This document shows positions 8,173 through 27,423 of a DNA stretch of 64,000 nt, in pieces. A program made the translations under genes and the position numbers. The notes below the pieces were generated by a model. The model was not told the origin of the DNA. It was given only the letters and a program-made list of their open reading frames with translations, and did no database searches. The DNA is from Acidobacteriota bacterium (GTDB lineage Bacteria > Acidobacteriota > Terriglobia > Terriglobales > Acidobacteriaceae). The DNA is taken from contig JAJYVF010000003.1 in the NCBI GenBank assembly GCA_021792135.1, positions 124,001-188,000 on the forward strand, in the 5' to 3' direction. How positions within the stretch are numbered: position 1 is the stretch's first letter; every line of letters starts with the position of its first letter.

Positions 8173-8391
8173 TCACTTTCTCCTCAGATAATCGATCAGG
8201 AACTGAACGAAGGTGATGAGCGCGCCGAGGGCGATGGCGAACCCGCGCGCGTTCTGGAAGCGCTCTTCATGTTGGGCGACGCGCCGCTCGATGGCGCCGA
8301 TGCGTCCGGAGTTGCCGTCGCCGAGGAGGGTGCTCATCTGGTTCTTCAGCACGGAGAGGTCGGCGAGGACCTGGGCTTCAAATTCGGTCAT
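8173..8391 (-). CDS. small coiled-coil and membrane-anchor protein, holin-like
   Basis: A 72-residue protein at the downstream end of the phage block. Residues 1-48 are polar with heptad-like spacing (FEAQVLADLSVLKNQM, IERRVAQHEERF). A single hydrophobic segment follows (about 51-66, FAIALGALITFVQFLIDY), ending in RRK. This coiled coil plus C-terminal helix layout resembles XhlA-type holin accessory proteins, but no specific motif proves it. I chose the ATG at 8391; a longer in-frame start at 8451 adds a Pro-rich, unlikely extension. It follows the tail protein gene by 86 bases. Function is inferred from shape and position only. Confidence 0.6.
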   Translation of the reverse strand: MTEFEAQVLADLSVLKNQMSTLLGDGNSGRIGAIERRVAQHEERFQNARGFAIALGALITFVQFLIDYLRRK

Positions 8392-8476
8392 GGGTGGAGA
8401 TTCCTCAGGGCCAGGGGTCGTTTGGAGCCGATAGCGGGTACCTGGTCGCAAATACCTGCCGGCTACAGGCTTCCGG

Positions 8477-10804
8477 CTAGCTGCTCAGCGGCAGGTTGAC
8501 GAAGACCGCCGCAGAAAATCGCGAGTAGTTGGGCGGCGTCGATGCGTCGTACATGCGGATGTAGTACTGCTCCTGTGCGGCCTGGCGAGGAATGGTGAAG
8601 TTCGGCACCGGCGAGCGCGACACGAGATCCGGCCCGGGGCCGGGCGAGAACGCCCAGTCGCGGCGGCGCACTTCGAATCCGCCGCCGGTGGGAGGGGTCA
8701 GGCCGGCATCGATCTGGATGGCGCTGCCTGTTACGGAGGCGATGGCCAGCGTATTCAGATTCGCCAGCGGAGAACTGGTCTCCGGCTGCAGCGGCAGCCA
8801 GGCATCGGCGGGGATGCTCGACGAGGTGCTGATGGCAAGATCGTCGGCCCAGTCGTTGGCAAAGGCGAGGGTATACTTCGCGAGGCCGGGCGCGCTGCAG
8901 GGCAGGTCGATCTCCACCGTGCGGACGACGAGGCTCGCTGTGACGCCCGCTGAGGCGGATGCGATCGCGAGCATATCGCCGGGAAAGATGTCGCCTTGCT
9001 GCTCGGGATTCCACGCCGTGTATTTGCCGGTCCATGCGGCGGCGCGGCTGGTGGCGACAGCAAGGATCGCCGCAGCCGCGTTTTCGCAGTCGGCCGAACT
9101 GCGCGGCACGGGCCTGGTGACGGAACCAATCCAGCAGGCGGTGCCGGGCAGCTTGCCGCCATTGCTTTCGCTGGCAATGCTGGCGGCGCTGGCCAGGCGG
9201 GCGACGGAGCGGCGGCTGGTGCGATACGAAATGGCGATCTGCTCACCGGCCAGCGGCGTGCTGGCCGGGTAGAAACGCAGCTTGCCTGTGCGCTCGAGGG
9301 TGCAGTCCGCCCCCTGTGCTGTGGTGCCCAGGCGGCGAACAACGGGCGTTCCGTTGGGCGGCGTGCTCGTCACCCAGGCGGGTCCCTGCTGCTCGACGGT
9401 GACACTGCCGATGCTGCACTGCAGGTAGCTGGAGTTCAGAGGGGCGAAGGTGCAGAAAGGCGGCAGCAGAGACACGGCTCCGGAATAAAGGACGACGGGC
9501 GCGCCAGCGACTCCACCGGTGGTGTCCTGCACTTCGAGGACGGCAGATGCGGCGGAGTTGACATAGTCGGCTCCGAAGCGCTGGAATCCGCTTTCTGCGC
9601 CGGGGGCGTAGTATGCCTGGTGGATACGCTGCGTTTCGTTTGCACAGAAACGCAACCGCAGCGTATACAAATGCCCGGTAACGGCGGTGAAGGTGCTCCC
9701 GGCGATGGTTCCGTTCAGCAGCGGAGCGATCGTGGCGGAGCCGCCGGACTGGGCGATCTGAAAGCCCATAAGGCAGCTGGCGAGGTTGGGGCCGCCTCCT
9801 CCATAGAGACCGTTGACGATGCCGGAGGTCTGCTGGCCGAACTGCACGCCTCCGGCCTCGATCACCAGCGAGCCGCCCAGTTCGAGGTTCGAGATGGCAA
9901 ACACCATGGTTGCGCCCAGCGTTCCATTGCCACCCGCGCAGGTGAGCCCGGCGGAGGTCAGCGAGATGTTCTCAGCCGAGTCGTCGATCATCCAGATCTG
10001 CGGGTTGATGGCGGGGCCCTGAAAGAGGTCGATGAGGGGCTTCGCTCTCGATGCGGGCGGGACATAGGGTTCTCGCGTCAGATCGAAGAGGACCGTTGTG
10101 CCGTCGCCCTGGAAATATTCGGTAACGTAGGCGCAGGGCTCGGGCTCGCCGCAAACCGTAACATCGTTGGCGAGGGCTTTGACCATGGAAAGCTCGAGAT
10201 TGCTGCGGGAGAGCGTGCCCTGGCTTTCGCTGAGCGAATGCGTGACGGTACCCACGGGCACCATGGTGAGGGTGCCATTCATCAGGCGCCAGGCGTTGCG
10301 CGTGGCGTTGGCAAGGGCTCCGGCGTTTTCAGCCCAGGTGCGGCTGCTCTCCGGCTGGAATTCCGAGATGTTCTGGGTGGCCTGCGAGAGCGCCTGTGTG
10401 ATCCCGGCAATCTGCATGCGCGAGAGCAGCGACTGAAGCGCCTGTCCCGCAGCTGCGCCATAAGTTGCGCCGGTCTGCGGAATGCTCTGGCGGCTGAGCA
10501 GGATGTCATCGCTGGCCGCGGTCACGACGGCCTCATAAACAGCGCCCATGGTAGCCTGGCCAGCCAGTTCGAGCGTGGGCTCCGTGGCGATGTAACCGGT
10601 AAAGAGAATGTTGCCGCCGTCATCCGCCACCCCGATGCGGGCGTTGCGCGCAGGGGTGGCGAGGCCTTGTGACGGGAGTAATGTAACCGTGCAGGTTACT
10701 GGCTCGTTGAGACGGCGCACGATACGAAAGGGGCGGCCGGCGACGACCGAAGAGGTGTAGTCCGCCGGGCCGTTGCCGTCGAAATTATCAATCGTGATCT
10801 TCAA
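8477..10804 (-). CDS. phage tail tip or baseplate protein, large
   Basis: A 775-residue structural protein at the end of the tail gene order. Residues 1-220 look like a tail hub region (VVAGRPFRIVRRLNEP, then DDGGNILFTGYIATEP). The middle, roughly 245-420, has a beta-rich stretch like a LamG or jelly-roll fold inserted in the chain (SLVIEAGGVQFGQQ, GHLYTLRLRFC). The C-terminal third contains WTGKYTAWNPEQQGDIFPGDML, typical of tail hub proteins that return to a core fold, and ends with Fn3-like strands. The start is TTG at 10804 behind GGGAGG. No lysozyme motif is seen. It is directly downstream of the tail tube candidate, where a tape-measure gene would normally be expected first. Confidence 0.6.
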   Translation of the reverse strand: MKITIDNFDGNGPADYTSSVVAGRPFRIVRRLNEPVTCTVTLLPSQGLATPARNARIGVADDGGNILFTGYIATEPTLELAGQATMGAVYEAVVTAASDDILLSRQSIPQTGATYGAAAGQALQSLLSRMQIAGITQALSQATQNISEFQPESSRTWAENAGALANATRNAWRLMNGTLTMVPVGTVTHSLSESQGTLSRSNLELSMVKALANDVTVCGEPEPCAYVTEYFQGDGTTVLFDLTREPYVPPASRAKPLIDLFQGPAINPQIWMIDDSAENISLTSAGLTCAGGNGTLGATMVFAISNLELGGSLVIEAGGVQFGQQTSGIVNGLYGGGGPNLASCLMGFQIAQSGGSATIAPLLNGTIAGSTFTAVTGHLYTLRLRFCANETQRIHQAYYAPGAESGFQRFGADYVNSAASAVLEVQDTTGGVAGAPVVLYSGAVSLLPPFCTFAPLNSSYLQCSIGSVTVEQQGPAWVTSTPPNGTPVVRRLGTTAQGADCTLERTGKLRFYPASTPLAGEQIAISYRTSRRSVARLASAASIASESNGGKLPGTACWIGSVTRPVPRSSADCENAAAAILAVATSRAAAWTGKYTAWNPEQQGDIFPGDMLAIASASAGVTASLVVRTVEIDLPCSAPGLAKYTLAFANDWADDLAISTSSSIPADAWLPLQPETSSPLANLNTLAIASVTGSAIQIDAGLTPPTGGGFEVRRRDWAFSPGPGPDLVSRSPVPNFTIPRQAAQEQYYIRMYDASTPPNYSRFSAAVFVNLPLSS

Positions 10805-10817
10805 CCTGGCCTCCCGG

Positions 10818-11810
10818 CTAAATCAGCGTCATCGGGCTGGGCAGAAAGCTGCGAAAACAGACGACCTGCTCGCCGTCATTTGAATCTGTAACAGGCAGTG
10901 CGCGGAATGTGGCGCCGAGCGCGATCCGTTCGAGCGGGGCGGCGAGAGCCGCCGAGGCTTCCGATGCCCCGCCCAGGGCCTGCAGCCGCGGATAGTGGAA
11001 CAGGATCCGATCGCCCTGTTCACCGGGAATGACGAAGAGCGCGGACCACTCCTGAAAGAAGCTGCCGCCCTCGCGATCGACGAAGCCGGAGATGGGCTGC
11101 ACGCGCATTCCTGTTGCGGGAACTCCGGCAAGCAGCGGCTGCGCCAGCTCGAGACCCGGCGCCGAGCCTGAGGAAACGAGGGATGCCACACGCGCGACGT
11201 TGAACGAGACGCGGCGAATATAGTCGGGATCATTGTTGACCGCCGCCGGGCTGGAGACATAGGCCGCGCAGACGCCGCTGCCTGCGAAGCCGGTCTGGCC
11301 CGTGTAGTCCACATCGACTGTGACCAGGGACCCGGCCGAAAATCCGGCGGTATCGGAGGCCGCGAGGGCCAGGAAAGTTGCCGTCGATCCGGTGGCGAGG
11401 TTCACCGCCGGCACGCCCTTGCTGCCGGATCCGTTGGCCGTGCCCCCGGCCGTGGGCACAATCAGATTCATATGCTGCGAACCGGCGGCCAGCGCCATCG
11501 ACAGCTTGCTCCAGGTCCTGAAGCGAAACGACACGGTGGCGTCGACGGTTTCGCGCACCTGGTACTGGGTTGTGCCGGGGCTGCCGGTAACCAGATTGCC
11601 GAATTTGCTCGTGGATTTGCGGGCGAAGTTCTCGATCCAGCCGAGGTCGATCCAGGGCGAAGGCGGCGCGTCGAGCGAGAACTGTCCACTCACGGAGGGA
11701 TCGAAGACGGTGGGCAGCCGGTGAACGCGATCCACGGGCGCGAAGTAGGCACGCACACAGCGCCCGATGGGAGGCTGCGCGCCCAGTGTTGTGACGGCGG
11801 GTGTGCTCAT
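10818..11810 (-). CDS. phage tail tube-like structural protein
   Basis: A 330-residue Ser/Thr/Ala/Gly-rich protein with few charged clusters, beta-strand-like throughout, consistent with a tail tube or similar structural subunit. Visible segments include SPWIDLGWIENFARKSTSK near the N-terminus and, near 230-270, RVQPISGFVDREGG. The ATG at 11810 overlaps the upstream gene stop as ATGA. Position, after the connector and completion genes and before the large tail protein, is where siphovirus-like tail tube genes sit. I cannot tell tube from another tail subunit by sequence alone. Confidence 0.5.
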   Translation of the reverse strand: MSTPAVTTLGAQPPIGRCVRAYFAPVDRVHRLPTVFDPSVSGQFSLDAPPSPWIDLGWIENFARKSTSKFGNLVTGSPGTTQYQVRETVDATVSFRFRTWSKLSMALAAGSQHMNLIVPTAGGTANGSGSKGVPAVNLATGSTATFLALAASDTAGFSAGSLVTVDVDYTGQTGFAGSGVCAAYVSSPAAVNNDPDYIRRVSFNVARVASLVSSGSAPGLELAQPLLAGVPATGMRVQPISGFVDREGGSFFQEWSALFVIPGEQGDRILFHYPRLQALGGASEASAALAAPLERIALGATFRALPVTDSNDGEQVVCFRSFLPSPMTLI

Positions 11811-12295
11811 TGTTCTCCCTGCTCCTGGAACGCGAACACCATGACTTTGGCGATGCGGCTGAGGCGGTCGCGCAGCGTAACGGCTGGCCCGAACTCGGGC
11901 TCGGACCAGAAAACCATGGTCTGCATGGCTTCGGGCGGATTCCGGGCGTAGTTCATCTTTTGTGCCGAATACGGATACAGAAGCCTGAGCAGCTCGTAAT
12001 CCATCTGCTCCAGAGCGCGGCCGCGGTCAAGGCCCGCATTGGCCTGGGTTCCCACGGTGGAGTACTGAATCTCGCAGGTCATCTCTGCCAGAATCGCGGG
12101 CAGCTGCAGGTCGGCCTGAAGGCCTGTCCAGCTCAGCGTGAACGCATCGAGAATCGGCTGCGCCATCGGGGGCTCGGCGTCCGCCACCAGGATGCCGGGG
12201 CGCGCGACGGCGCGCAGCGTCATGGTGCGCGACGGATTCAGCGCCGCCAGGCGCGTGCGCAGCGTGATGTAAAACGTGTCTTTTGCATTCTGCAT
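11807..12295 (-). CDS. putative tail completion or terminator protein
   Basis: A 162-residue protein with no motif I recognise. It opens MQNAKDTFYITLRTRLAALNPSR, a pattern seen in small tail-terminator proteins whose N-terminal helix is followed by a mixed alpha/beta body. It lies between the connector genes and the tail tube candidate, which fits a completion role. It overlaps the next gene by 4 bases. Upstream there is a 156-base gap with no gene, holding one short AGCGGTCAGG-type repeat. The function is by gene order only. Confidence 0.45.
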   Translation of the reverse strand: MQNAKDTFYITLRTRLAALNPSRTMTLRAVARPGILVADAEPPMAQPILDAFTLSWTGLQADLQLPAILAEMTCEIQYSTVGTQANAGLDRGRALEQMDYELLRLLYPYSAQKMNYARNPPEAMQTMVFWSEPEFGPAVTLRDRLSRIAKVMVFAFQEQGEQ

Positions 12296-12451: not shown

Positions 12452-12892
12452 TCACATTGGCCATTCGCCGCTGGCTTCCCGTAACAGCAGGCGGTACAAA
12501 TAGGGCTCGCCCTGCGTTTCCGAAGCGGAGAATGCCTCGATCAGGAACAGCTTGCCCGCAATCACCACACCGGCAGCCCTCACGAAAAGGCACTCTGCGG
12601 AGCTGAGATTCTGCTGGGTTACCTGTACTCTGACCGCGTCCGCGGAGACGAACAGTTCGTATTGCGGCAGCTCGCTCTCCTGCATGGTCGCGCGCAATTT
12701 CCTGAAGACCGCCGGCGAGAGCGGAAGCGAAAGGAAGCCGGGCGCGTCGAGACCAACCTGGCCGGCATTGCTCGTGTCGCCCTGGAGCGGCGGCATCTGG
12801 AGGCACGCTGTGGTTCCGCCGTTTGCGCGGAGCAGAGCCGCGGCGACGCTCCGCGCAGCTCCGCAGGGAATCTGGGTGCTCAGGTCGGCCAT
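12452..12892 (-). CDS. phage structural protein, possible head-tail joining protein
   Basis: A 146-residue protein starting 2 bases after the connector gene stops. It contains GFLSLPLSPAVFRKLRATMQESELPQYELFVSADAVRVQV and then ECLFVRAAGVVIAGKLFLIEAF, an alternation of strands that suggests a small beta-barrel like head-tail stopper proteins. No catalytic residues are evident. The tight spacing with the connector gene supports cotranslation. It may instead be a minor decoration protein. Confidence 0.45.
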   Translation of the reverse strand: MADLSTQIPCGAARSVAAALLRANGGTTACLQMPPLQGDTSNAGQVGLDAPGFLSLPLSPAVFRKLRATMQESELPQYELFVSADAVRVQVTQQNLSSAECLFVRAAGVVIAGKLFLIEAFSASETQGEPYLYRLLLREASGEWPM

Positions 12893-12894: not shown

Positions 12895-13521
12895 TTATCC
12901 CATCCTCACGGAAACCCAGGGCCGGAGCATTGCCTGCACCGTCTCATCGAGGAGAGCGCCGGAGAAATACTGAAGCCACATGGTATCGAGTTTTGCTGTC
13001 TTCACATTCAGCCCTGGCGTGGCCTGGGCATTCTTCACGATCTGCGCGCACGCGCACTTCACGGCGCCGGGCATTGTGGCGAGGCCCGCGGTGTAGGCTA
13101 CCTGCACCTCGTTGTAGGGCAGTCCGAGGATGCTGAGGGGAAAGATCAGCTCGCCGGTATCGGCGACGAAATCGACCGTGGTCGGATCCACGGTGGTCCA
13201 CGCGCCCGGCAGCGAGAAGGCCCACAGCACTTCTTCCTGAACCGGATAGACGGTCTGGCCGCGCCGCGGCCTGGCATAGCGTGCCTGAATCGCGACGAGC
13301 GGCAAGGTCGCGGGGGCAACAGAGACCAGCGGCAGATGGCTCAGGCGCGCCGTCTGCGATCCCTCCACCAGGCGCAGCCGTTCCATGTACTGCGTGGGAT
13401 TCAGGCTGGCCCGGCGGCAGTGGCTGTCAATCAGCGACGAGGCCGCGGTGATCCAGTCGTCGGTGACGTCGGGAGCCAGGCCGTAGGTCTGGTACTCGGT
13501 TGGCTGCAGATAACAGGACAT
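12895..13521 (-). CDS. head-tail connector (gp6-like adaptor)
   Basis: A 208-residue protein placed directly after the major capsid gene. It has the adaptor layout: an N-terminal helical part (VTDDWITAASSLIDSHCRRASLNP), a beta-hairpin middle, and a C-terminal helical part (VKCACAQIVKNAQATPG, LDTMWLQYFSGALLDETVQAML). In HK97-like phages such adaptors dock on the portal and carry the tail. The ATG at 13521 follows AAGGAG at ideal spacing. The call rests on the helical pattern and gene order. Confidence 0.6.
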   Translation of the reverse strand: MSCYLQPTEYQTYGLAPDVTDDWITAASSLIDSHCRRASLNPTQYMERLRLVEGSQTARLSHLPLVSVAPATLPLVAIQARYARPRRGQTVYPVQEEVLWAFSLPGAWTTVDPTTVDFVADTGELIFPLSILGLPYNEVQVAYTAGLATMPGAVKCACAQIVKNAQATPGLNVKTAKLDTMWLQYFSGALLDETVQAMLRPWVSVRMG

Positions 13522-13549
13522 GGAACTCCTTTGCAGGGAACAGGCCAGG

Positions 13550-13620
13550 GGTGAAGCGGCCAGCCGCCAGCGATCAGACGGCCAGCCGCAACCGGTCAGC
13601 GGTGAAGCGGCCAGCGAGGC
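13550..13620. repeat. GAAGCGGCCAGC / CAGCGATCAG repeat cluster
   Basis: The gap between major capsid and connector genes carries two direct copies of GGTGAAGCGGCCAGC (13550-13564 and 13601-13615) with CAGCGATCAGA and GGTCAGCGG units between. A third GAAGCGGCCAGC lies on the other side of the capsid gene (14715). Confidence 0.6.
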
Positions 13621-13668: not shown

Positions 13669-14637
13669 CTACCGATCGACCAGCACCTGGTAATGGGCGT
13701 AGTTCGCGCCCTTCACGACCGGCGCGCCGAACTTGACCACCACATGCTGGGAGGCCAGCGAACCGGGCACGCCAAGCTGGAAGACGCGCGGGTTGGGATC
13801 GCTCAGCCAGTGGTATTCGATCAGGTCTTCGGTGACGATGTAGGCGGGCAGGACCGCACTGCCCGATCCCGGAGTGCCGGTGTAGGCCAGCGACCAGTCC
13901 GGAATCAGCGGCAGCTCGCCGGCCTGGGTGGCCAGCATCTTCACGGTGAAGCCGGCGGCGATCTCCCTGGTATTCAGCACCACGTTGAACTCGGACTTCA
14001 TCTCGCGATCGATCAGGTCGAGCAGCACCGGATTGGCGTAGATGGCCGTCGGCCGCACGGCATAGCTGGTATTGGCGCACATCTGCGCGATGGTGGACTT
14101 CAGGCCGTCGGTGATCGAGGCTGTGGTGCCGATGGTCGTCGTGTTGCCCCCGGCGGCGATCTGTCCGGCCACGCCGAAGTATTGCATCGTGGCCGGCGCG
14201 CTCAGCGAGGTGTCGTTGCCGTTCCACAGCGCCACGTCGTGCGTCAGCATTACGCCTTCGATGGTGTCGACGAGATCCTTCGCCTGCAGATAGGCGAACT
14301 GCTTCTGCTGCGCGCCCAGCTCCATGTCGAAGAGGTTGTAGTTGAGCTGCGCCACAATGGCCTTCAGCGGCACGCTGCGTTCCACGCGGGTAGGCGTGAC
14401 CACAGGCGCGACGATGTTGCGCGGATCGACAAAGCCCGCGGTCGAGGGATTGGGAATCGCCGTCTGCTCGAAGTAGCGCGACGGATGCCCGGTGGCCGGG
14501 ACCTGCTTGATGCGCTGGCCGAAGATGTTCCGGCGGCGCACGATGTCGAGGATCTCGGTCTGGTACTGGGGAACTTCAATGGCTCCGGGACCGATGAAGT
14601 CCGCTGCGGCATGGATATCGAGGAAATTGGCTGTCAT
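13669..14637 (-). CDS. major capsid protein, HK97-like
   Basis: A 322-residue protein in the capsid position, after scaffold and before connector. It contains features of HK97-fold capsid proteins: an N-terminal segment with EILDIVRRRNIFGQRIKQVP, a long central helix region (FAYLQAKDLVDTIEGVMLTHD), a loop describing nucleotide-like ANPVLLDLIDREMKS, and a C-terminal QHVVVKFGAPVVKGANYAHYQVLVDR. No N-terminal delta domain is present, which agrees with a separate scaffold gene upstream. The ATG at 14637 follows AAGGAAG; a longer frame to 14697 lacks such a site. Confidence 0.75.
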   Translation of the reverse strand: MTANFLDIHAAADFIGPGAIEVPQYQTEILDIVRRRNIFGQRIKQVPATGHPSRYFEQTAIPNPSTAGFVDPRNIVAPVVTPTRVERSVPLKAIVAQLNYNLFDMELGAQQKQFAYLQAKDLVDTIEGVMLTHDVALWNGNDTSLSAPATMQYFGVAGQIAAGGNTTTIGTTASITDGLKSTIAQMCANTSYAVRPTAIYANPVLLDLIDREMKSEFNVVLNTREIAAGFTVKMLATQAGELPLIPDWSLAYTGTPGSGSAVLPAYIVTEDLIEYHWLSDPNPRVFQLGVPGSLASQHVVVKFGAPVVKGANYAHYQVLVDR

Positions 14638-14711
14638 GACTTCCTTTCGTGAAGAAGAGTTCGTGAGAAAACAAAACGCCGACGAGCGAGTGAGCAAGCT
14701 GGCGAGTTAGT

Positions 14712-14750
14712 GGCGAAGCGGCCAGCGGTCAGGCATCAGGCGGTCAGCAG
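14712..14750. repeat. GCGGCCAGCGGTCAGG repeat cluster
   Basis: In the 210-base gap between scaffold and capsid genes. GAAGCGGCCAGCGGTCAGG is followed by further CATCAGGCGGTCAGC units. It matches the cluster on the other side of the capsid gene, so the capsid gene is flanked by related repeats. Confidence 0.55.
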
Positions 14751-14846: not shown

Positions 14847-15275
14847 TCAGCCCAGCACGCCCGCGCGCAGCAGTTGTGCCTTGACCACGATGCGCTGCTC
14901 GATGCTCAGCCCGTTCAGCGCCGCATCCACCGCGCCCGCCTCGAGGGAATCGAGCGAGGTGATTCCCTGCTTGGCGAGAAACTGCGCCGTGCCGGCGGAA
15001 ACTGTCCTGCGCAGCGAACCCGTCTGGGTCCCGGTCTGCGCCTGCAGCTCCGCAATCTGCTGCTCCGCGGCTTCAAGTTTCTTCTTGAGCTCGGTTTCGC
15101 GGCTGCTCTCCACAGCGGCCACGATCTTCCGCACCTCGCCGCTGCGCTCGCTCTCACGCTCTTCAAGCAGGGCTACGGTGCGCTCAAAGAGCGAGGCCGC
15201 GGCTTCGATGCGAGCCTCCATGCGCTCCATGCTTTCTCTCAGAGCGCCCACGTATTCGCCTGTCTGGTTTTCCAT
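14847..15275 (-). CDS. putative capsid scaffolding protein
   Basis: A 142-residue protein. About residues 8-100 are strongly helical and charged with coiled-coil spacing (ESMERMEARIEAAASLFERTVALLEERESERSG, then ETELKKKLEAAEQQIAELQAQ). A short globular C-terminus ends RIVVKAQLLRAGVLG. Coiled-coil proteins between protease and capsid genes are usually scaffolds. The ATG at 15275 follows AAGGA and the gene overlaps the end of the protease gene by 37 bases, which suggests coupled expression. The role is by shape and position. Confidence 0.6.
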   Translation of the reverse strand: MENQTGEYVGALRESMERMEARIEAAASLFERTVALLEERESERSGEVRKIVAAVESSRETELKKKLEAAEQQIAELQAQTGTQTGSLRRTVSAGTAQFLAKQGITSLDSLEAGAVDAALNGLSIEQRIVVKAQLLRAGVLG

Positions 15276-15898
15276 CTCAGTTCCTTTCTCCTGTCATTGG
15301 TTGGAACGGCGGCGCCGGCTCCATTCCGGCAATTTCTGTTTGCGTCCGCTTCTGTCCTGGCTCCGGCAACGACGCGTGGCGCCACCGACCGGCAGCGCTG
15401 CGGCACCAGCTCAAAGGACGTGTTGCGGTAGGCCGCCTTGTCGCGCAGCAGGATGGCTGCTCCGGTGAAGGTGGCCCGGGTCAGTGTCCAGATCTCCGCG
15501 CGCATATCCTCGACGTGGGCGTCGGCCAGCTCCCAGGACATTCCCATGGTGCCGGGCAGGCCTTGCCGCACCTGCCGCGCCACCTCGGGGAAGTCCTTCG
15601 CGTAGAGATAGCCGGCGACGCGCAGCCGCGTGCCCTCCACGTCGGCCTGGGTGATGACGCCGCACTTGCGCCGCGCATCGTGGCCGTCCCAGGCCGGCGC
15701 GTAATCCACCGCCATGCCCAGCAGCGAGGGCAGCGCCGCGAGCGCCGCTGCGCGCGTCAGGATCACCCGATGGCCGCGCGCTCCCGACGGCGGTTTGGTG
15801 CTGGGCTCGTCCACCAGCGTCAGCACGCCGGTGAAAGGCGCGCGGTTCGGATGTCCTGCCACCTCCGGCAACGTGACTGCCATGGCCTGCAGTTTCAT
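15239..15898 (-). CDS. putative prohead maturation protease
   Basis: A 219-residue protein between portal and scaffold. The N-terminal half reads as a protease-like domain: FTGVLTLVDEPSTKPPSGARGHRVILTRAAA, then DYAPAWDGHDARRKCGVIT. The segment TMGMSWELADAHVEDM resembles the active-site strand of phage head proteases in which a serine sits in a GMSWE or GLSFE context. The C-terminal 50 residues are basic and low in structure. It overlaps the portal gene by 4 bases (ATGA). Catalytic assignment is tentative. Confidence 0.5.
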   Translation of the reverse strand: MKLQAMAVTLPEVAGHPNRAPFTGVLTLVDEPSTKPPSGARGHRVILTRAAALAALPSLLGMAVDYAPAWDGHDARRKCGVITQADVEGTRLRVAGYLYAKDFPEVARQVRQGLPGTMGMSWELADAHVEDMRAEIWTLTRATFTGAAILLRDKAAYRNTSFELVPQRCRSVAPRVVAGARTEADANRNCRNGAGAAVPTNDRRKELRWKTRQANTWAL

Positions 15899-17214: not shown

Positions 17215-17248
17215 GTCGTCGTTGCTCCTTCCCTTCCGTTCCCGGTTG

Positions 17249-17279
17249 CAAAACAAAAGGCACGGCGTTTTGCCGTGCC
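17249..17279 (-). terminator. rho-independent terminator after the DUF3037 gene
   Basis: On the minus strand GGCACGGC and GCCGTGCC form an 8-bp perfect stem with a five-base loop, followed by TTTTGTTTTG. It separates the terminase/HipA/DUF3037 genes from the portal gene and downstream head genes. Confidence 0.8.
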
Positions 17280-20528: not shown

Positions 20529-23500
20529 TCAGTAGGCATACCAGTTGTAGTCGGGCCCGCAGACCAGGGTGCGTTTGCCCGCCGTGGTGATGGCCAGTGT
20601 CTGGGCAGAGACCCCGTTGTAATTGATGTTCTGCGAGCTTACCGTTTGCAGTGTCACCGCGTTGGCCGACGTGTCGGACTTGATGATGGTCAGCTCCAGC
20701 CCCGTGGGCGATGCCTTGTCAGGGAGCGGCGTATAGCAGCTCGGGAGAGTGAGGGTCTGCGTCCCGCTCGCCGCATTGGCGACCACGTTCCGGTTGGCCG
20801 CGGTCAGTGTCAGCGTGGAGGCCGTGTTGATGACGGTGCTCAGCGCCAGGCCGCCGTTCGAGCGGATCGTCCCCTGATACGTGACGTTGAAGAACGGATT
20901 GCTCCCGGAGAAGTGCGCCTGAAACGCGTCTCCCTGGTAGCCCGTGTACATCTGTGCCGAATACGCCGGATAGCTCGAAGCCGCCGCGACCGGCGTGGAC
21001 CACACGCGCGGCACCGCGCCGGTCGGGTCGTTGATGTTCGCGCCCCCGCTCGAAAAGCCGGTGACGTTGGCGGGCTCCAGCGCCTGGTAGTAATTGCCGC
21101 AGCCGGTCAGGTGATGAATACTCGCGTAGGTCGGCGGATTCCCCGAAGTTCCGGCGTAGGTGATCCAGTTCACGCCGGCCCCCATACCCAGGCAGTCCAC
21201 ATCGGCGACCAGCAGGTTATTCGTAACCGTGGGTGCGACATAAATCAGGTTCGCTGCCGGAAAGCTGGTCAGGTCCGGCCACTGGATGTGTCCGCCGTGG
21301 ATGGCGATGCCGTTGGCGCCCACATAGAAGCCCGCCACTGCCGGGCTGTCGACATAGGTGTCTGTCCACACGCTTCCGGCGCCTCCGGTGTCGTAGATGA
21401 CATAGCTGGTCGCGTACGAGGCATTGGCCGCCGAGCCCGAGCTCGCATTGTTGATGCAGGGCGCCGTGGTGCAGGTGTAGGGGTAACCAAAGCCATGGAT
21501 CCCGTATCCGGTGTTGCCGGTCCCCTCGTTATAGATCGCAGCCGTCAGCGCATTCCGCACCACAACCTTGTCCAGATCGCTGTCGATCGCGGTCTTCTCG
21601 ATGTGAATGCCGTACGCCGGCCGACTGGCCGGGGTGAAGACTGCGCTGGAATAGCTCACCGTCGTATTGCGGACAAGGAAATTCGCCTGGTGCCCCGCGG
21701 CTGTATTCTCCTCGCCCAGCAGAATGCCCTCCGCCGTCGTATCGTTCGCCGTGATGTTATCGAGCAGCGCGCCCCGGAACCACTGGAGCTCGAACCCATG
21801 CGTGGCATTGCCCTGGGCCAGGAGATTGAGGTCCTTGAAAGTGCAACCCTGCGCCTGCGCCGTATTGCCCAGAAAGAACACATCTCCGCCCAGCGAAGCC
21901 GGCACGGTCAGCGTAGTCGCGATCTGCGGGCTGTCGGCGTTCATGGTCGTGCCGCCCGAGCCCAGCACGCTGACGCAAGCCCCGTTCGCAGGCTCGTTCA
22001 TGGTGGCGCTCACCGTAAAGGTCCCCGGACCCAGATGGATCGTCTGGTTCTGGCCGCTTGTATTCGCCTGCTGGACAGCCGCATTCCAGGCCGCATTCAG
22101 CGAGGGATAGGTGACTCCGTCGACGGTGATTTCCCCGTTGATCGTCGCCCCGCTCAGGCCTCCCTGGGCGCGCAGGGATCCGGGCAGCGCCAGATTGCCC
22201 GAGGTATCGAACTTCGAAGTGATTCCATTGCAGGTGAAGGAGAGACCGCCACCCGCGGCTCCCGCCAGGCCGACGGTGCAATAAGGGGCCTGGCCGCCCT
22301 GCTTTGTGGAGCCGGACGTCCATTGCCACGCGGAGGTGCTGGGCTTGTACGCAAGGACATCCTCGCCGCCGGCGGCATTCTGGTGCGTCAGCACCTGCGA
22401 CCACGCATTCCAGGAAGCACAGTAGGGGGAGCAATTGACATCGACGGCGCCCATGTTGGTTCCATTCGGCGCACCGAAACTGGGCAGGGAAAGCTCGAGG
22501 CCATTGGCAAAAGGGCCGGAAAGTACATACCCGTAGGGAGTCATCATCTGACCCTGCCCGATGACGTAGGGTGTTCCTCCCGCCGGAAAGTTCTGATACA
22601 GGAGAGGGCTGTTGGCGTTCGAATCGTAGTTCATGAAGCCGGCCCTGCCGTAAATCATGGCAGAGCGGCCCTCAACCCCCTTGCCCGCAAACTGGTAGGA
22701 GCCGGAATGGGTTCTGAGGCCGCGAAAGCCCACGTTGAAGTAATGGGGTATCTCGACCTTGTCGCCGGTGCTGAACGTGCCCATCAGCTGATCGGTCGCA
22801 ATGGAGCTGCCGTCGAGCGCCCCGGTAGCGGGATTCCACACATTCTGGGTGTGGGTCATGGGGTAGATCGCGTAGGGGTTGGAGGGCGTCACGGCAACCG
22901 TGATAGAGGTAATGCCCGAGCCTCTGTTCGCTACTGCGCAACCGTTCAGCGAGCCTCCCGATGCGGTGCCGGTGATGTAGAGGACTGGCGGTGTGGCTCC
23001 CGTGTTCACCGTGTAGGTCAACTGAGGAGGAAAGACCAGGCCGCCCGTAGATTGTGTTGCGTAGAGGTAGCCGGAGCCGCCGCTGGCCGTGCAGGAGGTA
23101 ACAGAGCCACCGCTCACCGTCGCCGTCACTGTGCCCCCGCTGCCCATCTGCCCATAAGCGCGGGTCGCATGATTATTGAAGGACATTACATAAGCGGCGT
23201 TGCCCGGCACGTTGAACATGATGGGGAAAACCGGACGGATGACGTTGCCGAGACCGGTGTATCCCGCGCCGAAGCCCTGAGCGCCGGTTGCGCCCCCTAC
23301 CCAGTCAGCCTGCGTGGTGAAGCCGTAGCCCGTGAGGCCGCCCTGCGCTACATAGTCTCCGGACGAATAGGGAGCATCCAGCACGGCAAAGGTGATCGTG
23401 TTGCTGGCCGTGCTGACTGCCGTCAGTGGCTCGCAGTCCCAGGTCGGAGCGCCCTGTTCAAAGATGCAGGCAGGCTTCGAGGTGGAGAAACCGGAAGCGT

Positions 23501-25358
23501 TCGTCACCGGCACGGTGACGTTGATGGCCGGGTAGATGTTGGCCTGCGCCGTCGCCGTGCCGCTGTCGGTGGTGTAGCTGGTCACCGGACAGGTGATCCC
23601 GCTGATGGTCAGGCACTGCACCTCGAACTGGGTGCTGGTGGCTCCTGTTCCGATCACCGAGAACACCTGGTTGTTCAGGAAGGTGGCGTGGGTCAGGCCG
23701 GTAAACTTGACGGGGCTGCCGATCTGGGCAAAGGAGTTGCTGACCACCGTCACGATGACGATGTTGCCGTTCGGATTGCTGACCACCTGGTAGCCGGTGA
23801 CGGTCTCGGGGCCGATCACGCTGGTGGTCGAAGCGGTGGTGGTGGTGTAGACGGAATCCCCGTAGCTCGAATCCCAGTCGGCTCCCGCCCCGTAGGCAAT
23901 CGCTCCGTTGGTGATGTTGCCGAAGCTGGAGATGTAGCCGCTGCTGTCGGCATGCGTCAGGTCGATCATCTCCAGGCGAGCGCCGATCTGATTGGCCGCG
24001 CCCTGGGTCGTAGTCACGCTGAGCACATTGCAGGGCGCGGTGCAGGGCTGAGGGTAGGAGGTGCCGGACTGCGCCGTGATGGACTGGAGGGTGCCTTCGA
24101 AGACGCTGCCGGATTCTTCATGCCAGAAGGCGTCCTCGTTGCCCTCGTCCTGTCCGGTGTCGATTCCGCCGTAGCTGGTATCGAACTCCAGAATGCCGAT
24201 GTGGTCGCCGTTCGAATATCCCTGAAAGTTGTTGGAGACAGCGTCAAAGCTGGTCGGTGTATACATCAGGCTGCCCACCGACAGGCTGGTGCTGCCCATC
24301 TGGTCTGGCGAGAAGCTGCGCCCGCCCGCCAGCAGATTCGTCTGCACCTGCATGCCGGGGCCGGTATGCGAAGACGCTGCCTGCGGACCCCAGGTGACGT
24401 TCTGCACGAAGGAGGGACCGGAGGAGAACCTCATCCACTCCGGGTTGTTGATCGAGGCCGGGTCGATGCCCGCATTGCAGATCCACTGCGGCGCACCCCA
24501 GCGGTCGTCGCGTATGCAACCCATCGGAGCGCTGGCCGACGGGCTTCCGCGCAGCCCGGACCAGAAGAAGCTGCCGCCCCACGGCTGCGCTTCGGTCTGC
24601 GCATACGTTGCCGGAGCTACGACCTGGCAGGCGTATGGGTACGTCTCGCATTCCGCCAGCGACACTTTCATTCCATCGTTGGTCGCCGTTCCGGACTGCC
24701 AATGCTCGGCGTAGAGGGCACCCTCCATCTGCTGCGCATTCAGCGGACCCGACAACGTGCCGCCGGCGAGAGGCAGACTCAGCGCTGCCAGCTGATCGGC
24801 GTAGTGCTTTGTGGCCGCCTCGGCACCCGACGTGGGATCCGCGCTCAGGGTCAGCGGCCCGGTCAGCGAGCCGCCGGCCAGCGGCAGGTAAGAGCTGCTG
24901 ATGGACTCTACGGCGCTGTTCACATACTCGGGGGTTACTGACTGCACGGCTACGGCGGAGGGCTCGAGCTGCGCACGCACCGACGCGATGGAGGCGGTTC
25001 CCGAAGCGGGCACCACCCAATACTCCTTGTTCACGGTGCCGTCGCTCAGGTGGTAAACAGCGGTGTAATAGCTGCCTGCGGGCAGCGCCGCCGCGTTCGG
25101 GGTAAGGTTCACGCTGACAAATCCGTCGGCCCCGATAGCCGTGCTCAGGCTCCCCGCGGCTACAGCCTGATTCTGGGGTGTGGTGAAGGCGGACCAGCTG
25201 ATCAGCAGGGTTCCGCTCGCGGGTGTCCCGTCAGCGCGGTACACCGCTCCCTGTACGGTCGTGGTGCTGACCTGTGCGACGGCGCGGGGCGGCACCACAG
25301 CCATCACGGCCAGGACCAGCGATACAGAGATTACCCACCAGGTTCTCCGTTCCATCAT
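20529..25358 (-). CDS. giant exported fibre-like protein with beta-helix region
   Basis: A 1609-residue Gly/Ser/Thr/Ala-rich protein. The N-terminus is a Sec signal peptide: MMERRTWW, a hydrophobic core (VISVSLVLAVMAVV), and a likely cleavage after AVA. A beta domain follows (TVQGAVYRADGTPASGTLL ... HLSDGTVNKEYWVV). Around 140-205 it has two SYLPLAGGSLTGPL / SLPLAGGTLSGPL repeats, the hallmark of phage tail-fibre shafts. Around 1090-1390 a right-handed beta-helix of pectate-lyase type is likely (TIHLGPGTFTVSATMNEP, then many short strands). The ATG at 25358 follows AAAGG; longer starts would begin in the terminator. It lies 6 bases upstream of terminase. It may be a surface adhesin or a captured tailspike. 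Confidence 0.7.
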   Translation of the reverse strand: MMERRTWWVISVSLVLAVMAVVPPRAVAQVSTTTVQGAVYRADGTPASGTLLISWSAFTTPQNQAVAAGSLSTAIGADGFVSVNLTPNAAALPAGSYYTAVYHLSDGTVNKEYWVVPASGTASIASVRAQLEPSAVAVQSVTPEYVNSAVESISSSYLPLAGGSLTGPLTLSADPTSGAEAATKHYADQLAALSLPLAGGTLSGPLNAQQMEGALYAEHWQSGTATNDGMKVSLAECETYPYACQVVAPATYAQTEAQPWGGSFFWSGLRGSPSASAPMGCIRDDRWGAPQWICNAGIDPASINNPEWMRFSSGPSFVQNVTWGPQAASSHTGPGMQVQTNLLAGGRSFSPDQMGSTSLSVGSLMYTPTSFDAVSNNFQGYSNGDHIGILEFDTSYGGIDTGQDEGNEDAFWHEESGSVFEGTLQSITAQSGTSYPQPCTAPCNVLSVTTTQGAANQIGARLEMIDLTHADSSGYISSFGNITNGAIAYGAGADWDSSYGDSVYTTTTASTTSVIGPETVTGYQVVSNPNGNIVIVTVVSNSFAQIGSPVKFTGLTHATFLNNQVFSVIGTGATSTQFEVQCLTISGITCPVTSYTTDSGTATAQANIYPAINVTVPVTNASGFSTSKPACIFEQGAPTWDCEPLTAVSTASNTITFAVLDAPYSSGDYVAQGGLTGYGFTTQADWVGGATGAQGFGAGYTGLGNVIRPVFPIMFNVPGNAAYVMSFNNHATRAYGQMGSGGTVTATVSGGSVTSCTASGGSGYLYATQSTGGLVFPPQLTYTVNTGATPPVLYITGTASGGSLNGCAVANRGSGITSITVAVTPSNPYAIYPMTHTQNVWNPATGALDGSSIATDQLMGTFSTGDKVEIPHYFNVGFRGLRTHSGSYQFAGKGVEGRSAMIYGRAGFMNYDSNANSPLLYQNFPAGGTPYVIGQGQMMTPYGYVLSGPFANGLELSLPSFGAPNGTNMGAVDVNCSPYCASWNAWSQVLTHQNAAGGEDVLAYKPSTSAWQWTSGSTKQGGQAPYCTVGLAGAAGGGLSFTCNGITSKFDTSGNLALPGSLRAQGGLSGATINGEITVDGVTYPSLNAAWNAAVQQANTSGQNQTIHLGPGTFTVSATMNEPANGACVSVLGSGGTTMNADSPQIATTLTVPASLGGDVFFLGNTAQAQGCTFKDLNLLAQGNATHGFELQWFRGALLDNITANDTTAEGILLGEENTAAGHQANFLVRNTTVSYSSAVFTPASRPAYGIHIEKTAIDSDLDKVVVRNALTAAIYNEGTGNTGYGIHGFGYPYTCTTAPCINNASSGSAANASYATSYVIYDTGGAGSVWTDTYVDSPAVAGFYVGANGIAIHGGHIQWPDLTSFPAANLIYVAPTVTNNLLVADVDCLGMGAGVNWITYAGTSGNPPTYASIHHLTGCGNYYQALEPANVTGFSSGGANINDPTGAVPRVWSTPVAAASSYPAYSAQMYTGYQGDAFQAHFSGSNPFFNVTYQGTIRSNGGLALSTVINTASTLTLTAANRNVVANAASGTQTLTLPSCYTPLPDKASPTGLELTIIKSDTSANAVTLQTVSSQNINYNGVSAQTLAITTAGKRTLVCGPDYNWYAY

Positions 25359-25526: not shown

Positions 25527-25625
25527 TCACTCTATAAGTTCAGAATATCAGTTCGAGAGAATTAGACTGCCAAATATCTTTCCCTGATTTGTCGCGGAAA
25601 TCCTTTGCTTTCTTTGCGAGTGACT

Positions 25626-26114
25626 TTAGTTTCCGGCCTCCCCTCTTGACAGTTTTTCTGCATTGGGGTTGAGCAGCCCATATTCGAGGAAAAGCCGGGT
25701 CAGCCGGTCGAGCGCTCCTCCATAAATTCGCATCACGGATCGCACGCTTTCCCCGGTCAGAGCCGCTACCTCGAGTGTCGAGTAGTCCTCGAGCGCAATA
25801 TGCGCCACCACCTGCTGCGAGCGCGCGTCCAGCTGCCGCAGGCATTTCTCCACGTCGAAGATGAAGATGACCCTGTCCTCGAAGCTCTGCATCCGGTAAC
25901 TCGATGCCCGGCCGCGGAACACCATGCTTCCCAGCAGGCAGGGTGTACGGCCGACCTCCATCGACGTCTGCATATACCGGCGCAGCAGCCCCACGGCGTG
26001 TTTGCGGTAGAAGGCCAGTCCTTCGATGGGCCGGGGCCGCGCAACCGGCAGACTGGTGTCCGCCACCGCAAAGGCCGCAGCGATGAAGCACGGCATTGCC
26101 CCCGCGGCGCTCAC
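25626..26114 (-). CDS. sigma-70 region 4-like DNA-binding protein
   Basis: A 162-residue protein whose C-terminal half (about 94-140) reads like sigma region 4: RQLDARSQQVVAHIALEDYSTLEVAALTGESVRSVMRIYGGALDRL, a helix-turn-helix of the kind that binds -35 boxes. No region 2 is present, so it is not a full sigma factor. The N-terminal half has a basic segment (AFYRKHAVGLLRRYMQTSMEVG). It probably regulates the phage block, as a late gene activator or accessory factor. The start is GTG at 26114, overlapping the zinc-finger gene stop as GTGA. A terminator follows it. Confidence 0.55.
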   Translation of the reverse strand: MSAAGAMPCFIAAAFAVADTSLPVARPRPIEGLAFYRKHAVGLLRRYMQTSMEVGRTPCLLGSMVFRGRASSYRMQSFEDRVIFIFDVEKCLRQLDARSQQVVAHIALEDYSTLEVAALTGESVRSVMRIYGGALDRLTRLFLEYGLLNPNAEKLSRGEAGN

Positions 26115-26299
26115 GCTGCACCTCCGTCAGACGCCGCTGCTGCATGTCGCCTGCGCCGTCCCGGGCGCCGCGCGCGCCGTGGGGGAAGCGCACGCAGCCG
26201 CCGTGCGCACTCGTGGCAGTAAACTTCCTCGCAATCCTGAGCGCGGTACCAAAGTCCACCGCACCTTTCACAAACCTTCAGCAGAATTCGTAAGTACAT
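26111..26299 (-). CDS. small zinc-finger protein
   Basis: A 62-residue basic protein with four cysteines in two pairs: KVCERCGGLWY near residues 9-19 and EVYCHECARRL near 26-36, a treble-clef or zinc-ribbon knuckle. The C-terminus is very Arg-rich (RRARRPGRRRRH), suited to nucleic acid contact. The ATG at 26299 follows GGAG at a spacing of 6; a GTG 18 bases upstream has no site. Overlap with the sigma-like gene indicates one regulatory unit. It is too short to assign to a named family. Confidence 0.55.
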   Translation of the reverse strand: MYLRILLKVCERCGGLWYRAQDCEEVYCHECARRLRALPPRRARRPGRRRRHAAAASDGGAA

Positions 26300-26709
26300 C
26301 TGTTTCTCCGAGGTCACTGCCGGCCTGCTGCAGTCGTAACTGCCGCGGCCGCGGGGGAGGGAAGGCTGTGCCGCTCTGCGCCGGCATCCGTCTTCAGTGG
26401 GTTTCGTCAGTCAGGCGAAGATTGGTTCGTCCTGGTTTCAGCATCGATTCGCCAGGCTGGCATGCGCCTCCGCTGCTGTCGGCGTCTGCCGCGCATGATC
26501 CTGCGCAAAAGGTGTATGTCTGCCTGGCAGAAGTAGTCCGACACTAATGTGAGCAACCAGAGCAGTCAATCTGCCGCAGATCGAATCGGTCCCCCTCTGC
26601 CCAACTGAGTACTGAAGTGCCTTTCCCTTCTTCCGGAATTTGCGAAATCGCAATTCTTCCTGCAAACCCTCAGGTAACGGGTGTATAGCTCGGTGAAAAC
26701 TTCCCACAG
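26300..26709. promoter_or_regulatory. divergent control region of the phage block
   Basis: A 410-base gap between the leftward zinc-finger gene and the rightward repressor-like gene, with no supported gene. It holds an imperfect inverted repeat (26636-26656). A weak rightward promoter is possible, with TGCAAA at 26661, a 17-base spacer and TATAGC at 26684. I see no clear leftward promoter. Confidence 0.45.
26636..26656. promoter_or_regulatory. inverted repeat, candidate operator
   Basis: GAATTTGCG and CGCAATTC are complementary arms, with one bulged T, around AAAT. The inner 14 bases TTGCGAAATCGCAA are a perfect dyad. It lies about 55-75 bases before the XRE gene, next to its possible promoter, as expected for an autoregulatory operator. 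Confidence 0.45.
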
Positions 26710-27423
26710 ATGAAATTCCTCGAGTTACATGAGCGCCTTCGTCTGGAGACGTGGCGTCGCATCGATCAGGGAGTTCTGAGCAGTTCTCTGCTGGCGCGTC
26801 AGACGGGCCTGGCCCAGGCCCACATCTCGAACTTCCTGCACCGCCGCCGCCGTCTCAGCCTTCCTGCCCTTGATCGCATCCTGCAGGCTCAGGCGCTCAG
26901 CGTCGAGGAGCTGTCCTCCGCCCCCATCTCCGATTTGTCTCCCCCGGAGGGGAACCATCGGCAATTCATGGATATCGTCCCCATTGCGTCGCAAAGCACT
27001 GCAATGAACGCACCTCTGATCTCGGCGCGAAATGCCATCGACACGATGCAGCTGCCCTCCGGATGGCTGGCAACGTTTGCCGCCCGCCGCTCCGTCAGTC
27101 GCCGCCGATGGGAGCGCTTTGTCGGCGTGCGTGTGACCCACCTGCAGGCCCTTCCCATGGACCCGCTGCTGCGCGCGGGCTCCGTTGTGGTGCTCGATCG
27201 CCATTACAACTCGCTGGCCCCGTGGAAGCCTCCCCATCCCAACCTCTACGGAGTTCGCTCCGGCTCGCAGCTGCTGTTCCGGCATGTCGCCTTTGAGTCC
27301 AGTTGCCTGATCCTGCGCCCCCGTGCCCTCGATCATCCCGTCGATCTCATCGAGCTCGCACCGCACGAGACGCCATCCGACTTTCTGGTGGGCCGCGTCT
27401 GCCTCTGCATCTCCGAGGCCTGA
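26710..27423 (+). CDS. XRE-type regulator with a degenerate S24-like C-terminal domain
   Basis: A 237-residue protein. Residues about 10-70 form a helix-turn-helix (VLSSSLLARQTGLAQAHISNFLHRRRRLSLPALDRIL), as in phage repressors. The C-terminal region (about 150-235) follows the layout of LexA/CI S24 domains: LPMDPLLRAGSVVVLDRH, then LYGVRSGSQLLFRHVAFE, then DFLVGRVCLCI. The usual catalytic serine before M-x-P reads proline here, and the usual lysine position reads arginine, so self-cleavage seems lost. It is transcribed away from the phage genes and probably controls them. The ATG at 26710 is the first in frame. Confidence 0.65.
   Translation: MKFLELHERLRLETWRRIDQGVLSSSLLARQTGLAQAHISNFLHRRRRLSLPALDRILQAQALSVEELSSAPISDLSPPEGNHRQFMDIVPIASQSTAMNAPLISARNAIDTMQLPSGWLATFAARRSVSRRRWERFVGVRVTHLQALPMDPLLRAGSVVVLDRHYNSLAPWKPPHPNLYGVRSGSQLLFRHVAFESSCLILRPRALDHPVDLIELAPHETPSDFLVGRVCLCISEA

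Follow-up and report, generated by a model that had tools for sequence, protein, structure and literature searches.

A vertically inherited siphophage-type head-tail gene cluster of Acidobacteriaceae, probably a gene transfer agent with a reduced tail

A phage-derived gene cluster found across the Acidobacteriaceae is likely to represent an ancient, vertically inherited and domesticated siphophage head-tail module, whose most likely role is that of a gene transfer agent (GTA). We describe it in a stretch of 64,000 nucleotides (the window, positions 124,001 to 188,000 of contig JAJYVF010000003.1, assembly GCA_021792135.1; coordinates are window positions). Since its head, packaging and tail genes are intact without any genes for replication or integration, Acidobacteriaceae probably assemble virus-like particles that serve the bacteria themselves, and such a particle would most likely move pieces of their own DNA between cells. 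The best reading appears to be that of a GTA-like viriform with a reduced tail.

The cluster forms a minus-strand operon of about 18 kb (26299 to 8173) that comprises genes for the large terminase subunit (TerL), portal, protease, scaffold, capsid, adaptor, neck proteins, tail tube and hub (Table 1); the divergent repressor gene is the only part on the plus strand. A reading based on plus-strand open reading frames was dropped, because codon-position GC and homology favour the minus strand. All frames of the cluster are intact in the window. A sequence-only reading had proposed a head-tail cluster here, which is borne out by the profile matches of portal, adaptor and TerL. Its claim that integrase, small terminase (TerS), tape measure and endolysin are absent also holds for the block: Pfam and PHROG profile searches of the cluster revealed no integrase, and no replication genes, endolysin or TerS-like gene emerged from the profile searches. 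No direct repeats of at least 16 nt pair the two cluster ends, in agreement with the earlier remark that flanking att-like repeats are missing. Of what a temperate prophage needs to function, namely att sites and genes for integration, replication and lysis, only the holin-like gene was encountered in the cluster. Genes that the earlier list did not contain code for a HipA-like kinase, a DUF3037 protein, a sigma-r4-like regulator, a 62-aa zinc-ribbon protein and the holin-like 92-aa protein.

Table 1. Genes of the cluster and its flanks, in window positions, with the basis of each assignment
Feature	Position	Strand	Basis or remark
CI/LexA-like repressor, Cro/C1 HTH and S24-like C-terminal domain	26710..27423	+	Pfam HTH_26, 3.6e-5
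62-aa zinc-ribbon protein (CxxC...CxxC)	26111..26299	-	same position in >20 loci
Sigma-70 region-4-like regulator	25626..26114	-	Pfam Sigma70_r4_2, 3.7e-6
Tail-fibre/spike-like protein, Sec-type signal peptide	20529..25358	-	start probably near 25358; longest frame to 25499
TerL	19035..20522	-	phrog_2, 2e-21; T4 Gp17 nuclease domain, 5e-13
HipA-like kinase	18141..19013	-	Pfam HipA_2, 3.4e-9
DUF3037 protein	17308..18144	-	Pfam PF11236, 2.8e-21
Portal protein	15895..17256	-	Pfam PF04860, 1.6e-53
Head maturation protease	15239..15898	-	position; fusion to scaffold in sister element
Scaffold (coiled coil)	14847..15275	-	position; fusion to protease in sister element
Major capsid protein	13669..14637	-	position and strongest conservation; start probably ATG near 14637
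Head-tail adaptor	12895..13521	-	phrog_442, 2.2e-16
Neck/head-closure candidate (146 aa)	12452..12892	-	position; orthologues 58/58 full length
Tail-terminator candidate (162 aa)	11807..12295	-	position; sister-element orthologue, 9e-39
Siphophage-type tail tube protein	10818..11810	-	AlphaFold2 model (pLDDT 75) and Foldseek
Baseplate hub protein, concanavalin/lectin-like insert	8477..10804	-	AlphaFold2 model (pLDDT 78)
92-aa XhlA/holin-like protein, coiled coil and one transmembrane helix	8173..8451	-	sequence shape
purE and purK, downstream flank	6375..8176	-	Pfam AIRC, 1e-61; ATP-grasp/PurK_C
E3, lipoate-protein ligase and 2-oxoacid dehydrogenase E2, flank	2175..6247	+	convergent with element; Pfam PF00198 3.5e-79, PF21948 7e-47, PF07992 2e-68

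The catalytic motifs of TerL are invariant, and its nuclease is of the T4/SPP1 type; a search of the own genome for the Terminase_3 family, to which this TerL does not belong, gave no match. A search with the portal profile extends to the portal of RcGTA (6tba) at an E-value of 0.003. Between TerL and portal lie the hipA-like and DUF3037 genes, which overlap by 4 nt. The kinase motif residues K32, E46, D134, N139 and D162 are invariant, and no HipA-like kinase was found in phage records. The protease and scaffold genes are separate and overlap by 37 nt in Acidobacteriaceae, whereas in a sister element of another family they are fused; the fused protein shows a weak match (0.01) to a head maturation protease. 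Scaffold orthologues are full length in 87 of 87 cases. The capsid protein has no Pfam, PHROG or PDB profile match, so that its assignment rests on position and conservation, its mean column identity of 80% being the highest in the cluster. Three capsid genes that seem broken (L043, L079 and L099) are probably artefacts of hit extension from upstream of the start.

All of the top 16 Foldseek PDB matches of the tail tube model are phage tail-tube or tail-module chains (best 7.8e-9). The hub model matches the T5 tail-tip chain 7zhj_b (4.6e-7), baseplate chains of Mu and diffocin, and lectins. The tail-terminator candidate gene overlaps the tube gene by 4 nt, and the hub gene begins 13 nt after the tube gene, leaving no tape measure in between. 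Throughout the Acidobacteriaceae clusters compared, tape measure and tail chaperone are absent; from the siphovirus-type long-tail set, tube and hub are present. Two weak matches to the PF10145 tape measure elsewhere in the own genome turned out to be a chemotaxis-receptor-like protein and a TPR protein. The fibre lacks a Pfam match, and its signal and the following domain are conserved within Acidobacteriaceae and in two sister-element fibres. The 92-aa XhlA-like protein, likewise without a Pfam match, was considered as a miniature tape measure on account of its coiled coil and transmembrane helix. This was ruled out, because its gene follows that of the hub, a place conserved in the family, and has a counterpart in the tape-measure-bearing sister element, where it lies after a fibre gene.

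The sister element belongs to another family of the class, in which 3 of 89 genomes carry it (G385, G395 and G449; loci L218-L220, L227-L229 and L242). It resembles the Acidobacteriaceae cluster in the gene order from repressor to hub, the HipA-like/DUF3037 pair, the secreted fibres, the XhlA-like gene and the site next to E2 and lipoate-ligase genes. In contrast, only the sister element possesses a 420-aa tape measure, a tail chaperone candidate, a pentapeptide-repeat gene and a putative TerS, i.e. a gene at the usual TerS place. The G385 copy is broken, with split portal and tape-measure genes. With the sister tape measure as query, and with positive controls included, the three sister-family genomes were recovered (6e-274, 1e-273 and 4e-120), the own genome gave no match, and none of 34 whole Acidobacteriaceae genomes gave a credible one. 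According to the sequence-only reading, an intact prophage with the missing genes at this very site in close relatives would speak against it. In part this applies, as a tape-measure-bearing sister exists in another family; on the other hand, no integrase or replication gene adjoins it, and the 34 Acidobacteriaceae genomes are all devoid of the tape measure.

All seven aligned Acidobacteriaceae repressors carry P/A and R/A instead of the S24 catalytic Ser and Lys, whereas the sister-family repressor, with a Peptidase_S24 match of 1.9e-4, retains both. We count this loss, like the lack of integrase, replication genes and att-like repeats, as a probable sign of domestication. The zinc-ribbon gene overlaps the sigma-like gene by 4 nt; the sigma-r4-like regulator, a candidate activator of the operon, has conserved counterparts in 28 other loci as well as in the sister element. 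A search for an operator common to the repressor and sigma genes was abandoned, as the alignment gave the zinc-ribbon gene instead and no convincing palindrome.

From this gene set we infer how particles would be assembled, loaded with host DNA, released by lysis and used for delivery through a tail stub. The repressor without self-cleavage residues, the zinc-ribbon protein and the sigma-r4-like activator would switch the operon on in some cells. Heads would be built by the protease, scaffold and capsid proteins and filled by TerL through the portal, probably with host DNA, since the element encodes no recognisable TerS. Adaptor and neck proteins would close the head, and a tail of tube and hub would be attached. 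As tape measure and tail chaperone are missing, this tail has probably been reduced to a short stub, unless another protein sets its length. The holin-like protein could lyse the cell together with a lysin encoded elsewhere. The fibre, exported by virtue of its Sec signal, would act either on particles after their release or at the cell envelope and may bind or degrade surface polysaccharide. A functional siphophage-type tail that lacks a tape measure is not known to us, and delivery may therefore differ from that of RcGTA; the missing tape measure thus makes DNA delivery uncertain.

This gap leads to a rather unlikely alternative, in which the domesticated particle has another job: a closed or stub-tailed capsid would pack DNA or protein without delivering it, for instance as a lysis-linked DNA-release, storage or phage-interference device. 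Apart from the loss of tape measure and tail chaperone, both present in the sister element, the HipA-like kinase and DUF3037 protein embedded in the operon fit such a role, and a secretion signal on a fibre would be unexpected if the tail is put together in the cytoplasm. However, tube, hub, neck proteins, portal and TerL are all under purifying selection (dN/dS 0.12 for the tube and 0.20 for the hub), which points to continued selection for a particle that has a tail and contains DNA.

The portal gene was found in 183 of 282 Acidobacteriaceae genomes (176 of 261 of high quality) and in 48 of 62 genera, nearly always intact and as a single copy. A few genomes, e.g. G007, G070 and G072, have a split portal, possibly due to MAG errors. 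Outside the family, 3 of 396 genomes of the phylum gave weak matches only. The divergence of the cluster follows that of RpoB, the single host marker used as reference (frames chosen by BLAST), with a Mantel r of 0.90 that was reached in 0 of 2000 permutations. Cluster and RpoB trees share 11 of 15 strongly supported splits, compared with at most 2 for shuffled labels; the remaining 4 conflict with RpoB. In 40 of 47 testable loci, purE/purK lie at most 1.5 kb downstream of the hub. In the window and 19 further loci of Acidobacteriaceae, the hub end is 0.3-3.5 kb from the convergent E2 gene; the three sister-family genomes likewise have a convergent E2, within about 7-8 kb of the hub end. These data support vertical inheritance at one fixed chromosomal site. 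As the sister family has the same element and the same convergent E2/lipoate-ligase genes, the insertion probably predates both families.

It is therefore highly improbable that the locus belongs to a satellite or temperate phage that can still move, relying on a helper or on genes elsewhere for replication and integration. The same loci have been called likely active prophages (PMC5900883), about one third of the Acidobacteriaceae genomes lack the portal, and capsid copies (68-93% identical) occur in IMG/VR contigs. In contigs resembling real phages the capsid relatives are 68-78% identical, which indicates that the capsid lineage is also viral. Yet those IMG/VR relatives that include neighbouring genes are pieces of the very cluster described here, the purEK/E2 neighbourhood is shared across the family and beyond, the tree is host-like, and neither integrase nor att-like repeats are present.

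The comparison across related genomes that the earlier reading had called for showed that 28 genomes from 24 genera have kept the gene order, apart from one rearrangement inside the cluster in an Edaphobacter/Granulicella group. The capsid-tail frames described as intact are full length not only in the window but also in nearly all copies of relatives (hub 56/56, tube 56/57, portal 104/105, adaptor 58/58). Every cluster gene is under purifying selection: the median same-genus dN/dS is 0.33 for the fibre gene and lies at 0.07-0.27 for all others, and the capsid gene (0.067) is as constrained as purK (0.072). A decaying prophage relic, which the missing tape measure, TerS-like gene and endolysin and the split genes of the sister-family G385 copy might suggest, is contradicted for Acidobacteriaceae by the intact frames and dN/dS values far below 1, and given also the invariant TerL and kinase motifs and the conserved gene order this reading is the least probable. 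The earlier proposal that the locus encodes a domesticated, GTA-like particle and is no dead prophage thus gains support from family-wide, nearly always single-copy retention, purifying selection, co-divergence with RpoB and the common neighbourhood.

GTAs have been proven in few lineages only. The Acidobacteriaceae belong to the commonest soil bacteria and to those that are hardest to culture, and their gene exchange is poorly known. A particle locus conserved in most sampled genera offers a directly testable route of gene exchange for them. Elements with and without tape measure and chaperone also constitute a natural experiment that asks if the function of a phage tail remains under selection once the ruler is lost. 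More tentatively, the cluster could be an independent GTA lineage older than the split of the two families, whose Acidobacteriaceae branch delivers DNA with a tape-measure-free tail and has a repressor without self-cleavage residues, an operon-encoded HipA-type kinase and Sec-exported polysaccharide-binding fibres.

In 2018, Eichorst et al. interpreted the members of 'Cluster 153' as prophages that are likely to be active and may form a new viral group (PMC5900883). At least two of these members are this locus: KBS 89 scaffold00005 60-90 kb overlaps L084, and Terracidiphilus gabretensis S55 LAIJ01000009 700-740 kb overlaps L099. In contrast to that reading, the loci are family-wide, vertically inherited, at one site and without phage functions. 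Loci counted as active prophages or soil 'viral' contigs (PMC5900883; IMG/VR) may in fact represent particles that belong to the host, and the counts in soil viromes would be affected accordingly.

Six features of GTAs have been listed: caudovirion-like particles derived from caudoviricetes, mostly random host DNA inside, a fully endogenized genome, a whole element that is not packageable, mostly vertical inheritance with co-diversification, and delivery of DNA to other cells (PMC9662315). At the gene level, a caudoviricete origin is seen in the homology or fold of portal, TerL, adaptor, tube and hub. Endogenization is reflected by the fixed site next to purEK and E2 in many genera without integrase or att repeats, and vertical inheritance by the co-divergence with RpoB and the same site in two families. 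The head and packaging genes, which tailocins have lost, are intact and strongly conserved. Like RcGTA and the rhodogtaviriformids, the type I GTAs of Alphaproteobacteria, the cluster is a vertically inherited siphophage-type head-tail module without integrase or replication genes, albeit in another phylum and without close sequence relationship. RcGTA has a polysaccharide-degrading tailspike, TspA, and keeps its tape measure, the C-termini of which are located in the baseplate (PMC13420450). The Acidobacteriaceae cluster differs in lacking a tape measure, in the HipA-like kinase and DUF3037 genes inside the operon, in the Sec-signal fibre within the main cluster, and in a regulation that looks CI/sigma-r4-like. 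With BaGTA, Brachyspira VSH-1 and other proven GTAs, compared here at the level of terminase and portal family folds only, it would share the same general lifestyle if the GTA reading holds. Independent origins are expected for these systems and the Acidobacteriaceae cluster.

We assigned the genes of the block to the minus strand because of their codon-position GC. Several of them overlap by 4 nt or are separated by gaps of 2-25 nt, an operon-like spacing, and the GC content of the cluster (59-68%) is not distinct from that of its flanks. The 5.1-Mb genome that holds the window (contig C54) has its closest named relatives among the Acidobacteriaceae.

Features of the head-tail cluster in the window, in order of transcription
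Feature	Position	Strand	Remarks
CI-like repressor	26710-27423		divergent from operon
Zinc-ribbon gene, 62 aa	26299-26111	minus	first
Sigma-r4-like gene	26114-25626	minus	second
Fibre	25358-20529	minus	third
TerL (terminase large subunit)		minus	
HipA-like kinase	18141-19013	minus	
DUF3037 gene	17308-18144	minus	
Portal, protease, scaffold		minus	
22-nt repeat, one copy	14706-14727		gap upstream of capsid gene
Capsid		minus	
22-nt repeat, two copies	13539-13616		gap downstream of capsid gene
Adaptor		minus	
Neck/terminator candidates, 146 and 162 aa		minus	
Tail tube		minus	
Hub (baseplate hub protein)		minus	
Holin-like gene, 92 aa	end at 8173	minus	purE and purK next

The portal (Pfam PF04860, 1.6e-53), the adaptor (phrog_442, 2e-16) and TerL (phrog_2, 2e-21) were identified by profile matches. 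The TerL profile also matches the nuclease domain of T4 Gp17 (5e-13), and in a set of 19 sequences the motif residues KARQMG, ESTP, D335, E390 and HDD show no or almost no variation. The tail tube model (pLDDT 75) finds its best matches in phage tail-tube and tail-module chains, and the hub model (pLDDT 78), which has a lectin-like insert, matches a T5 tail-tip chain as well as Mu-type and diffocin baseplate chains; since the TM-scores are low (about 0.1-0.6), these are predicted fold assignments at the family level. Position and a fusion in the sister element point to the protease and scaffold, position and extreme conservation to the putative capsid. The three 22-nt repeats around the capsid gene are perhaps regulatory or RNA-processing sites. 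The pair of HipA-like kinase and DUF3037 genes lies between terminase and portal both here and in a sister family of the same class (f7). The motif residues of the kinase are invariant, and no match to it was found among phage records.

The portal is present in 12/12 genomes of the genus examined, in 29/61 relatives and in 183 of the 282 Acidobacteriaceae genomes, representing 48/62 genera; in a profile search of 396 genomes of the phylum, strong matches were confined to this family. Cluster orthologues are full length as a rule. In some genomes (G007, G070, G072, G075, G202, G253) the portal appears as two matches instead of one, which frameshifts, decay or assembly errors may explain. Wherever contigs permit a reading, the 28 genomes compared, from 24 genera, agree in gene order, with two exceptions. 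One Edaphobacter/Granulicella-type group has its scaffold-to-tube block upstream of the fibre. In genome G034 (locus L158), the cluster contains purK and purE, which run in the opposite direction and separate scaffold from capsid; both halves are retained.

Median same-genus dN/dS rises from 0.067 for the capsid, the lowest value, to 0.265 for TerL and 0.33 for the fibre, compared with 0.072 for purK and 0.10 for purE in the flank; all these ratios are approximate, given some saturation of dS near 1 and only 2-8 pairs per gene. When concatenated cluster proteins were compared with RpoB in 29 genomes, their divergence was strongly correlated (Mantel r=0.90; 0/2000 permutations), and the two trees had 13/26 splits in common, among them 11 of the 15 with the best support, against at most two when labels were shuffled.

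The chromosomal site is likewise conserved. Of 47 testable loci, 40 have purE downstream of the hub at a distance of no more than 1.5 kb, and past purEK follow genes for 2-oxoacid-dehydrogenase E2, lipoate-protein ligase and E3, oriented towards the element. In three Acidobacteriaceae loci with no intervening purEK (L145, L156, L160) a distance of 0.3-1.1 kb separates the E2 gene from the hub. When the class was searched with a capsid profile, the same element turned up in the f7 genomes G385, G395 and G449. Its order, pieced together from stretches that do not span every gene in each genome, is repressor, sigma-like gene, a 169-aa gene in the usual place of the terminase small subunit (TerS), TerL, HipA-like kinase, DUF3037, portal, fused protease-scaffold, capsid, adaptor and the genes that lead up to the tube. 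As in the Acidobacteriaceae, its 3' end is convergent with E2/E1/lipoate-ligase genes. The simplest reading is one insertion before the split of both families, followed by losses; since the element is rare in f7 (3/89 genomes), an old transfer together with flanking DNA may instead account for its presence there.

Between tube and hub, the f7 element encodes a chaperone candidate of about 217 aa and a 420-aa protein, a putative tape measure judging by its place between chaperone and hub, its helical sequence and an N-terminal motif; its PHROG tape-measure match is only 0.04. The corresponding gap in the Acidobacteriaceae is mostly 12-220 nt. A profile of the f7 protein recovers its own three genomes (6e-274, 1e-273 and 4e-120), whereas a search of 34 whole Acidobacteriaceae genomes gave no credible match. 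Because tape measures are, to our knowledge, near-universal in long-tailed phages, we infer that the direction was loss in the Acidobacteriaceae. Nor did the Acidobacteriaceae loci compared yield a counterpart of the f7 chaperone, of its putative TerS or of two small genes in its neck region. A pentapeptide-repeat protein (Pfam 2e-20) between the neck genes (L219:11723-12190) occurs in the sister element but not in the Acidobacteriaceae version. In the f7 repressor the S24 Ser and Lys are intact, whereas 7/7 aligned Acidobacteriaceae repressors carry P or A in place of the Ser and R or A in place of the Lys, so that SOS-type self-cleavage has probably been lost in the latter.

Gene transfer agents (GTAs) usually betray themselves in genomes by head, motor and tail genes that selection retains while genes for replication and integration are missing. 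The cluster shows this signature: its head, motor and tail genes are selected, and replication and integration genes are absent. Three of six published GTA criteria can be tested from genomes, and the cluster agrees with all three; the others concern particles (PMC9662315). We regard a GTA-like DNA-transfer function as likely, with doubt about delivery mainly because the tape measure is missing. A particle with another function seems unlikely. Less probable still is a phage or relic. Some of these loci were listed as Cluster 153 prophages by Eichorst et al. 2018, who regarded most of their prophages as likely active (PMC5900883). Related proviruses of Terriglobales also appear in the paper on the Tunturi viruses (PMC11924767). 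We found no report of a domesticated or GTA-like status of these loci in the open-access papers searched.

Among 24 IMG/VR 'viral' contigs with the capsid gene, 19 are pieces of the same cluster and its neighbours (L170-L179, L181-L188, L193), and soil virus counts would thus take in particle genes that are probably host-owned. The remaining contigs, L180, L189 and L190-L192, are phage-like (19-214 kb), with capsid proteins 68-78% identical to that of the window. Terminase and portal genes near the capsid gene of L180 differ from those of the cluster; L189 carries exonuclease and helicase genes, and L190/L191 ligase, kinase and RNA-ligase genes. These contigs look like free phages, and the cluster has its capsid lineage in common with them.

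Nearly all Acidobacteriaceae fibres with the N-terminus covered begin with a basic and then hydrophobic stretch that ends in a signal-peptidase-like site, as judged by hydropathy and motif only; two f7 fibres have the same start and site. For a phage that assembles in the cytoplasm, an exported tail fibre would be unusual. The predicted export suggests that the fibre may act at the envelope or attach loosely after release. The tailspike TspA of RcGTA, a type I GTA of Alphaproteobacteria, is a detachable polysaccharide-degrading enzyme for which the passages cited mention no signal peptide; it offers a useful parallel to the cluster fibre (PMC13420450).
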